Source: a virus. Taken from it: a DNA stretch of 32,547 nucleotides. The stretch is taken from positions 1-32,547 of the IMG/VR virus record IMGVR_UViG_3300006990_000099; one strand, written 5' to 3'. The notes under the pieces are model-generated. The model worked only from the letters and a program-made list of their open reading frames with translations, was not told the DNA's origin and made no database searches. Below, piece after piece: positions 2,759 through 9,463 of this stretch (position 1 is its first letter; each line of letters opens with the position of its first letter). A program made the position numbers and the translations under genes.

Positions 2759-2923
2759 TCACTGATATGCAGTTTCGCGGGGTATATACTTCTCCACCCT
2801 TGCTTTGACGTTTTCCCATCTAGAATACTTCTCCAATAGTTTATCTACTTCAAGTTGGTTCTTTGTGCTGATGTAACAGAAGTCAAAACCTTTAGCATCA
2901 CTAAGCCAGATACGATAGGTCAT
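2759..2923 (-). CDS. Small hypothetical protein (54 aa)
   Basis: The ATG overlaps the stop of the winged-helix gene as ATGA, a typical coupling in this operon. The product, MTYRIWLSDAKGFDFCYIST and onward, is mixed alpha/beta with an amphipathic C-terminal half rich in Lys/Glu. No family is recognised. Its coding status rests on the 4-nt overlap and on the next gene starting right after its stop. Confidence 0.5.
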   Translation of the reverse strand: MTYRIWLSDAKGFDFCYISTKNQLEVDKLLEKYSRWENVKARVEKYIPRETAYQ

Positions 2924-3132
2924 TTAGGTGAACCCTGCAGGTAGTAACGCACATACCGTTGATTGGTGACAGGGTGCCACTTCTTCATAGATAGAATGTC
3001 GTAGCCCTCTTCACGCATCTCTTGGATACGCTTGGTCAAGCTGCTGATGCTGTATTCAATCAGAGCTTCACGCACTGTGATTGAACCTGCAGTTTTAAGG
3101 TGCTTCAAGATAGTTTGTTTTTGATTAGTCAT
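2920..3132 (-). CDS. Winged helix-turn-helix protein (70 aa)
   Basis: The small protein fits a winged helix: helix 1 in NQKQTILKHLKTAGSITVRE, a recognition region ALIEYSISSLTKRIQEMREEG, then a basic beta wing YDILSMKKW...RYVRYY. Phages often carry this fold as a small DNA-binding regulator. The second of two ATGs is preferred because AAGG lies 9 nt upstream and it overlaps the upstream stop as TAATG. It is the only clear HTH regulator candidate in the left arm, so it could act on the repeats in the divergent control region; that link is inference. Confidence 0.7.
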   Translation of the reverse strand: MTNQKQTILKHLKTAGSITVREALIEYSISSLTKRIQEMREEGYDILSMKKWHPVTNQRYVRYYLQGSPK

Positions 3133-3359
3133 TACCATTTTCCTTTTCTAATCATCCAATATGACCAACATGTCATACAATGTCCTTTTCCACAGATCAA
3201 GTCGATCAAAAATACCAAGTTAAACCTGTGATCTTTTTGCCACTGATAGTTACGTGCACTGAAAGTTTGGTTCGATGAACCCCCTAGCAGTACGTTAAAC
3301 CAGACAGAGGTGGCAATGCCTAGTCTATACAAATAGCTATTCATCCTTAATAATCTCAT
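3132..3359 (-). CDS. Conserved small phage protein with LLGGSSNQTFSARN motif
   Basis: Up to 75 residues, with an alternative ATG five codons in. The core FNVLLGGSSNQTFSARNYQ followed by a hydrophobic helix (RFNLVFLIDLICG) and HCMTCWSYW resembles a widespread small phage protein with a (L)LGG...(E/Q)T(L/F)SAR signature, seen near replication or lysis genes in other phages. The function of that family is not known to me. Hydrophobic helices suggest membrane association. It overlaps both neighbours by a few bases. Confidence 0.6.
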   Translation of the reverse strand: MRLLRMNSYLYRLGIATSVWFNVLLGGSSNQTFSARNYQWQKDHRFNLVFLIDLICGKGHCMTCWSYWMIRKGKW

Positions 3360-7740: not shown

Positions 7741-7920
7741 TTACCAATTGATAGGGCCGATAGTGAAGCCTTCTTCATTTACCCATATACCATCAGCGCC
7801 ATGATCGTTTGTAAATAAGCGCTTCAATATGGCTGTTGCTGCAGCAAGGTTGCTTGCTTCAATGGTGCCCATTTCAGCCCCACATTCCCCTTCAAAACAA
7901 AATTCGTATTCGTTAAGCAT
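7741..7920 (-). CDS. Small hypothetical protein (59 aa), first gene of the leftward operon
   Basis: Product MLNEYEFCFEGECGAEMGTI, then a helix (ASNLAAATAILKRLF) and an acidic beta C-terminus ending GPINW. Strong SD (AAGGA, 9 nt). As the promoter-proximal gene next to the control region it should be among the first made after infection, if the operon is early. Function unknown. Confidence 0.6.
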   Translation of the reverse strand: MLNEYEFCFEGECGAEMGTIEASNLAAATAILKRLFTNDHGADGIWVNEEGFTIGPINW

Positions 7921-8058
7921 TTTAGTTTTTCCTTCTTTGTTAAACGTTAAATTGTCCCAAATTATTTGCGCCGTTTTGCGCCATTGTCCAGCCCACCAAA
8001 TGCCAAACTATACGCCTGTCCTTGCTTTATATACGCAATTACCTGAGCCAACACCTTT

Positions 8059-8383
8059 GGATAGCGCTCGGATAGCCGCCGCCCGGCGAAAGGATATAAC
8101 GTTATAACCAAAAGGATATAGCACTATACCAAAGGATAGTTTGTATATCCGATAGGTATGTTTTTGGGGTTAAAGCTTTTTCACGTATCAGCACAAAGGA
8201 AAGCGCTTTCGACGCTGTAGACCCCTCTAGAACGGCTCTGAGCGCTATATATACCAGCGGATATGGTATTGCCTAACCTGTTGTGCCACTCGTATATCCA
8301 TCGGTATAGCGCAACCAGGCTAAAGGATAGCTCCCCCGGCTAAAGGATAGATGTTATATCCGAAGGGATAGGTTTGGGATAGG
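8059..8383. repeat. AAAGGATA/GGATAG iteron-like repeat cluster
   Basis: GGATA-core motifs occur at 8059, 8070, 8089, 8110, 8131, 8258, 8321, 8341, 8365 and 8378 in one orientation and as TATATCC near 8144, 8293 and 8355 in the other. Two 13-mers GGCTAAAGGATAG are exactly 20 bp apart (8318 and 8338). Such clusters are typical of initiator-binding iterons or operator arrays. Which protein binds is unknown. Confidence 0.65.
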
Positions 8384-8390
8384 TGCTGCT

Positions 8391-8490
8391 TTTGTGATCA
8401 CATATGAAAAGAGATTGCTGGTTTGTGATCACGTTTAAAGAGGGGTGGCTGTTTTGTGATCACAAACAAGAGACGGGTAGGGGTTTTGTG
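8391..8490. repeat. 31-bp tandem array of TGTGATCAC palindromic sites
   Basis: TTTGTGATCAC occurs three times with core starts at 8393, 8424 and 8455, exactly 31 bp apart (three helical turns). The third copy extends to the 14-bp perfect palindrome TTTGTGATCACAAA. Between the cores, AAAGAG and a GCTG-like element are also partly conserved, so the unit is the whole 31 bp. A degenerate fourth copy (TTTTGTGCATC) follows at about 8484. It is likely a binding array for a dimeric regulator or initiator. Confidence 0.8.
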
Positions 8491-8823
8491 CATCCAATCC
8501 GCGAAACGTGCCCCATATGAAAAAAGCCGTTAAAATTTCACGTTTTAGGCATTTTATGGACTGTATATCAGTTACAAAAGCGTGTCTTTTCAATGGTTTA
8601 CGCAATGAAATCAGCACAAATCAGCACAAAAAAAGGTAAAAGGTATCATGCTACCCCCCTGCGAGGGCCGGTGCCCCCATCCACGATGTACGTGTATGTA
8701 CAAGCACACAGAAGTGGTTTTTTAAGCCACAACTTTTACGTGTATACGCACCTATGTATTATCACATATTGTTACAAACCTGCAATATATGTAACATTTT
8801 ACAGGTAATCGCTTCATAGGGTA

Positions 8824-8851
8824 TTGACAGGGGTGGCTTTGTGAGTATAAC
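8824..8851 (+). promoter_or_regulatory. Sigma70-type promoter for the rightward arm
   Basis: A perfect TTGACA is followed by 16 bp and TATAAC. It points into the rightward genes and lies about 370 bp upstream of the first of them, so the transcript would have a long AT-rich leader. Its -10 matches the TANAAC form found at three other sites in this phage. Confidence 0.65.
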
Positions 8852-8867
8852 TGCGTAGCAGTAGCAG

Positions 8868-9066
8868 CAGAGTTATAACACTTTAAGTTAAAACACTTAA
8901 AAAAGAGTAATACTTAAAAGTAAAGTAATACTTTAGAAGAGTTATAACTTTATATAGAGTGTTGTAAATGGGTTAGTGGACATAGGAAGAGTTATAACAC
9001 TATAGTAACACTTTATTCTTGTATAACATGTTTGTAAGTGATATACTTTCTTTAATGTAACACTTT
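8868..9066. repeat. AT-rich repeats: GAGTTATAAC x3 and TAAYACTT x5-6
   Basis: GAGTTATAAC starts at 8870, 8939 and 8989; each contains the palindrome GTTATAAC, which also occurs at 8101. Interspersed are TAACACTTT or TAATACTT copies near 8877, 8908, 8926, 9006 and 9057. The segment is over 70 percent AT by eye and could be a DNA-unwinding element of an origin or a regulator-binding array downstream of the promoter. Confidence 0.6.
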
Positions 9067-9199
9067 CTCATAAGCAATAATCATAATTTGTGTTACAAAC
9101 TGGTACGTGTTGCAACTCTTAGTGTTGCTCTCCCCCTTGTCTCCTCTCTCAATACTTGTAGTTTGCGGCACGTACCACTTTTTTACGTGTATTAATGTA

Positions 9200-9227
9200 T
9201 TGACAATGAAAAATAAAAACATACAAC
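9200..9227 (+). promoter_or_regulatory. Second rightward promoter-like element
   Basis: TTGACA, 16 bp, TACAAC, with the extended -10 context ATACAACTATA shared with the element before the capsid gene. It overlaps the chosen start of the first rightward gene, so a transcript from it would serve the following genes rather than that one. Prediction from sequence only. Confidence 0.45.
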
Positions 9228-9463
9228 TATATGCATCTGATAATGTAATAGAAGAGTTTTACGATGCTCTTGTATCAGGTGACGCATCACGTTTGAAACG
9301 TGTACACATTCCTAAGAGTGACGTATTCTATGTAAGAGCAGCTATAGAGGCTGACACTGGCATCAGGTATTCTTTAGATCACGTAGAACGTGCTATGTAC
9401 TTAGAGGGCCACTTACCTAGAAGAGACGTATTAGATCCTGACAGAAAGCGGAGCTACGGCTAA
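9206..9463 (+). CDS. Conserved-looking hypothetical protein (85 aa), first rightward gene
   Basis: Starts MKNKNIQLYASDNVIEEFYD. An open frame extends 33 codons upstream, but that part is hydrophobic with low complexity and unlikely. No ribosome-binding site is visible at this ATG. The acidic helix region is followed by PKSDVFYVRAAIEADTGIRY and SLDHVERAMYLEGHL, a small helical protein with no assigned role. Its stop overlaps the next start as TAATG. Confidence 0.6.
   Translation: MKNKNIQLYASDNVIEEFYDALVSGDASRLKRVHIPKSDVFYVRAAIEADTGIRYSLDHVERAMYLEGHLPRRDVLDPDRKRSYG

Follow-up and report, generated by a model that had tools for sequence, protein, structure and literature searches.

What binds the array of three evenly spaced palindromes that lies between the early and the late genes of a marine virus, and what does it control there? 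The window, meaning the whole 32.5-kb stretch of DNA that was analysed, is an IMG/VR virus record. Its TerL shares 83-86% identity with those of the Roseobacter phages CRP-2 and CRP-603 and 72% with that of the Puniceispirillum phage HMO-2011, and its early and late genes are ordered as in CRP-2, CRP-603 and IMG/VR relatives. Judged by terminase and portal relatedness and by this gene order, the window is an HMO-2011-type phage, a group described as dominant and widespread across the ocean (PMC9038755). The cultured array-bearing relatives infect Rhodobacteraceae, to which the window's own host may also belong. The early genes run leftward on one side and the late genes rightward on the other side of a non-coding junction of about 1.3 kb, and the linear records of CRP-2 and CRP-603 are cut at the equivalent junction, directly upstream of gp01. 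The features of this region are as follows.

7741..7920, minus strand: gene that probably opens the early leftward operon (ORF list; gene order compared with CRP-2 and CRP-603).
7921..9205, no strand: non-coding divergent early/late junction with the array inside (ORF map; same position in cultured CRP phages and IMG/VR relatives).
8393..8402, no strand: predicted AkgR-type operator 1 in copy 1, exact match to the perfect 10-bp palindromic core TGTGATCACA (TTT-TGTGATCACA-TAT); the identical core lies over host AkgR gene start codons.
8424..8433, no strand: predicted AkgR-type operator 2, TGTGATCACG, with one mismatch in the 10-bp core, ending in G.
8455..8464, no strand: predicted AkgR-type operator 3, TGTGATCACA, inside the perfect 14-bp palindrome TTTGTGATCACAAA of copy 3 (8453-8466), as the earlier note had reported for one copy.
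8660..8710, no strand: GGGCC...GGGGTGTACGTATATGTATACAC-like junction element (by inspection), present in array-bearing and in most array-less HMO-2011-type phages examined, including the CRP and HMO-2011 records; possibly related to a late promoter or an origin.
8824..8851, plus strand: candidate late promoter TTGACA-16-TATAAC (from sequence).
9206..9463, plus strand: gene that probably opens the late rightward operon (ORF 9107-9463, with 9206 as its likely start).

The first late gene is kept in array-bearing and array-less relatives alike. The equivalent of the candidate late promoter was seen in relatives as a late-directed peak of the sigma-70 scan, about 240-290 bp from the distal site. 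Sigma-70 scans of the window gave no convincing promoter abutting the array, and a fixed early promoter beside it was rejected on this result.

The 11-mer TTTGTGATCAC was located at 8391-8401, 8422-8432 and 8453-8463, which confirms the claimed start-to-start distances of 31 and 31 bp, and it has no other copy on the plus strand of the window. Not one of 20,000 Markov sequences of junction composition contained even two copies. The partial conservation of the spacer was also real, the second and third 31-mers being 74% and 61% identical to the first. The last position of operator 2 is A in the relatives L015, L022, L026, L063 and L076. The decayed fourth site proposed at TTTTGTGCATCC near 8485 is doubtful: close relatives keep TTTTGTGCATCC or TTTTGTCCATCC, the motif GTGCATY occurs near 23 of the 95 arrays among the matches listed, and the stretch looks more like a separate GTGCATC element than a decayed site.

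Similarity searching with the junction returned no useful match from the phage collection, and relatives were found via the terminase and via pattern scans. Scanning of the viral contigs for TGTGATCAC-N22-TGTGATCAC retrieved 67 contigs, most with the pattern at the early/late junction. Leaving the spacing open (18-48 and 49-79 bp), in scans whose counts are of matches listed and hence lower bounds, yielded at least 119 non-redundant arrays, mostly of two or three sites each, at least 95 of them in HMO-2011-type contigs with assignable early/late orientation. TGTGATCACA is present in two to four copies at the junction of at least about 95 distinct related contigs and of the cultured phages CRP-603 (spacings of 32, 46 and 31 bp), CRP-13 (44 and 31 bp), CRP-1 (74 bp) and CRP-345 (75 bp), and CRP-2 has a single site there. 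When related genomes were checked at the same divergent position, the close relatives with the same gene order were found to keep the array, so that it passes the refuting check set in the earlier note. It was absent from HMO-2011, CRP-3, CRP-9, CRP-207, CRP-212, CRP-235, CRP-738, ctYwJ313, HTVC033P and HTVC115P; the six CRP phages among these belong to the same host group, so the array is not essential. An integrase is present in the window and in CRP-1, CRP-2, CRP-345 and CRP-603, and no homologous integrase was found in the array-bearing CRP-13, which indicates that the array is not a device for lysogeny only. A few of the 24 arrays beyond the oriented HMO-type set fall inside ORFs (among the matches listed), probably by chance. 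The array appears, as supposed in the earlier note, undescribed for these phages, the examined papers on HMO-2011-type phages mentioning no promoter, operator or repressor at the junction. Arrays lie near contig ends (e.g. L006, L020, L037, L062 and L064) more often than contigs of about 10 kb would lead one to expect; the junction may interrupt assemblies or differ strongly from strain to strain.

The spacings among the matches listed cluster at 20-22, 30-33, 41-44, 52-54, 63-65 and 74-75 bp across diverged DNA. For the arrays from the open-spacing scans only (n=120), a Rayleigh Z of 40 was obtained at a best period of about 10.7 bp with a phase near zero, the maximum in 2000 random sets being 10.3; the HMO-type arrays alone gave Z=33 (n=94). 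The spacings follow the helical repeat, which establishes that the sites of an array face the same side of the DNA. In close relatives, conservation is 95.5% for the sites versus 87.5% for the spacers. Compared with the window clade, L064 and L065 have lost exactly one unit, the middle one in L065, and the two sites left are 31 bp apart. One-face cooperative binding is a well-supported, predicted design feature of the array.

The earlier note had suggested cooperative binding by a dimeric phage regulator. A dimeric binder and one-face phasing at the divergent junction agree with the spacing statistics and the conservation; the attribution to the phage is probably wrong, since no phage gene covaries with the array in the cultured genomes compared. 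If a dimeric repressor or activator encoded by the phage were the binder, at a lambda-like operator set whose resemblance to AkgR sites is convergence, this would fit the divergent location, the integrase in the window and in CRP-1, CRP-2, CRP-345 and CRP-603, and the short phased operators that are typical of phage repressors. Among 16 cultured genomes, no phage protein was common to the array-bearing and missing from the array-less ones, a comparison in which small or highly diverged proteins could be missed, and the phage-encoded binder that accompanies a lambda-type operator set was not found in them; no CI-like repressor was seen among the ORFs examined. The 70-aa winged-helix protein (2920-3138) that had been put forward as binder was rejected, its distribution across cultured phages not following the array: it occurs in the array-less CRP-207 and is absent from the array-bearing CRP-1, CRP-345 and CRP-13. 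As the same 10-bp core is also found at host akgR, sdh and suc genes, we consider a phage-encoded binder improbable.

A CRP site (TGTGA-N6-TCACA) was rejected as well, the half-sites abutting without spacer in all three copies. The view that a host site is unlikely was right for CRP and is not supported for host sites in general; the array matches the operator of the host GntR/FCD regulator AkgR. Paired palindromes were not rare among controls: TGTCATGACA was paired in 58 viral contigs (L444-L501), many with the copies about 23-27 bp apart, and looks like a different phage operator family, and TCGTATACGA was paired in 3. Pairs of palindromes alone thus prove little, and the case rests on phasing, place and host match.

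Among the bacterial species genomes, the exact pair TGTGATCACA-N21-TGTGATCACA turned up in no more than two contigs, one from a Rhodobacteraceae MAG and one betaproteobacterial. In the Rhodobacteraceae MAG (G001) this 31-bp pair is chromosomal and lies upstream of a TauE-type exporter gene. The same MAG has the palindrome 8 bp ahead of the gene for a GntR/FCD regulator, and a 21-bp pair precedes sucA inside an sdh-mdh-suc cluster. Orthologues of this regulator (at least 61% identity) were present in 104 of 121 Rhodobacteraceae genomes sampled. At 25 of 30 orthologue loci the palindrome is found no more than about 21 bp from the aligned start codon (24 exact matches and one with a single mismatch), and these loci differ widely in G+C content. 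Chromosomal pairs 20-22 bp apart were detected in 39 of 61 genomes and in none with the reversed-pattern control, and single sites in 57 of the 61, with few control matches. Of 30 chromosomal pair loci, 15 adjoin mdh, 5 precede sdhCDAB and 1 precedes sucA.

The core GTGATCAC, present in the window at 8394-8401, 8425-8432 and 8456-8463, is among the binding sites of Rhodobacter sphaeroides AkgR (PMC6365646). The GntR protein RSP_0981 was predicted to control succinyl-CoA synthetase (sucCD), succinate dehydrogenase (sdh) and 2-oxoglutarate dehydrogenase (PMC4344238), and from gene family, targets and synteny we infer that RSP_0981 is AkgR. With the palindrome over or near its start, AkgR appears to regulate its own gene. 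Three marks of an AkgR operator are found, namely the core palindrome, a site at the regulator gene and sites at TCA-cycle genes of the host lineage. The phage sites share their palindrome with the AkgR operators of R. sphaeroides and relatives, which lie at akgR and at the mdh, suc and sdh genes, and differ from them in being on a phage genome, at the early/late junction, in two to four copies. Their spacing, mostly 30-33 bp versus mostly 21 bp in the host pairs, speaks against the AkgR reading.

We propose that the array is probably a set of phased host AkgR operators that couples phage transcription at the early/late junction to host TCA-cycle regulation. AkgR dimers already present in the host at phage entry would occupy the three palindromes next to one another, all facing the same side of the DNA, and cooperate; the complex would control transcription from the divergent junction, and phage expression would then follow the carbon and energy state reported by AkgR. 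The computation establishes the motif, the phasing, the conservation at the junction and the identity with host sites at akgR and beside mdh, suc and sdh; from these we infer occupancy of the array by AkgR, action on phage promoters and the sign of control. Activation of the early operon would be the first guess because R. sphaeroides AkgR is described as an activator (PMC6365646); repression, or a choice of promoter between early and late, is the alternative.

The sites could also act as a decoy, many phage genome copies titrating AkgR and shifting host TCA-cycle expression with no control of phage promoters. Each genome carries several sites, and titration of a regulator that apparently controls its own gene would have effects. 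A constant position at the junction and helical phasing would both be superfluous for a sponge, yet evolution has kept them, and other host-type operators crowd the same junction, which makes a decoy unlikely. Still less probable is that the repeats are iterons of a replication origin, recognised by an initiator that may act together with AkgR or the phage replisome. The repeats do lie beside AT-rich non-coding DNA and the cumulative GC skew is lowest close to the junction, but the skew also tracks gene direction (with its maximum near the convergent point) and so does not discriminate, several array-less relatives replicate without the array, and in host chromosomes the motif serves as a transcription-factor site.

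The other host-type operators were seen at the junctions of relatives; the window has neither of the two kinds. The alphaproteobacterial LexA-type box GTTCN7GTTC is 13.6-fold enriched in 95 junctions over the rest of the contigs, with 39 boxes in 26 loci (e.g. L059, L240, L274, L301 and L313), both among the matches listed, and mostly on the early side of the array. The spacing variants N5, N8, N9 and N10 showed no junction enrichment and N6 a weak one. A second palindrome, similar to GTTTAAYRTTAAAC, reaches an enrichment of about 390-fold, with 16-17 loci among the matches listed, and GTTTAACGTTAAAC-like second arrays, with copies mostly 30-33 bp apart and mostly on the late side, occur for example in L010, L056, L234, L239, L309 and L330 and in the cultured CRP-13 (L161) and CRP-9 (L162). 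In host genomes the second palindrome adjoins genes that read, named by eye, as malic enzyme, pyruvate dehydrogenase E1 alpha (pdhA) and dihydrolipoamide dehydrogenase (lpd). RSP_1663 (CceR) has the motif GTT-N6-8-AAC and predicted malic-enzyme and pyruvate-dehydrogenase targets (PMC4344238), and the palindrome fits a CceR-like operator in predicted motif and targets. CRP-9, which lacks the AkgR-type array, has two LexA-type boxes (L162:503 and 532) and four CceR-like palindromes. A broader and more tentative reading, to which we give somewhat less than even chances, is that HMO-2011-type phages of marine Rhodobacteraceae do without a repressor of their own. Host regulators would take the early/late decision for them, and in phages with an integrase also the choice between lysis and lysogeny, by way of interchangeable sets of phased operators at a single junction; AkgR and CceR would report carbon and energy state, and LexA DNA damage.

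Capture of host operators by phages is already known; this regulator, the phased form and the location appear new. The closest tested case is the cyanophage Pho boxes, host-regulator operators on phage promoters (P-SSM2 pstS; S-PM2d promoters, PMC10976474) by which phage genes likewise follow host physiology. There, PhoB binding was shown by gel shift, and that study warns that motif prediction alone is no proof of binding (PMC10976474). In contrast to the PhoB boxes, the array would answer to a central-carbon rather than a phosphate regulator, forms a phased multi-site set at the master divergent junction and belongs to other phage and host groups. With lambda OR1-3 and OL1-3 it shares three short palindromes, a divergent junction and apparent cooperative binding of dimers, and it differs from them in its likely host binder, its spacing of about three helical turns and the lack of a CI-like repressor among the ORFs examined.

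The AkgR match suggests that an abundant ocean virus group ties its genes to the host metabolic state instead of to a switch protein of its own. If the junction reads AkgR, and CceR or LexA in relatives, infection would be wired directly to host TCA-cycle and carbon regulation, which would offer a concrete, testable mechanism by which host metabolic state shapes infection or lysogeny in marine bacteria that grow slowly. Control circuits of uncultured phages could then be predicted by a rule, the presence of phased host operators at the early/late junction.

Further repeats were observed at these junctions. In CRP-1 (L159), CRP-345 (L160), L308, L312, L316 and L318 the palindrome GTCCAACATTGGAC (or GTCCAACGTTGGAC) adjoins the AkgR-type site, and the same six loci, together with HMO-2011, carry a CAACTG...CAGTTG inverted repeat. 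The interval between the array and the early genes of the window (8040-8380) contains repeated GGATA/TATCC units, some of them imperfect palindromes such as TATATCCGAAGGGATAG, which from their sequence are a possible further operator set.
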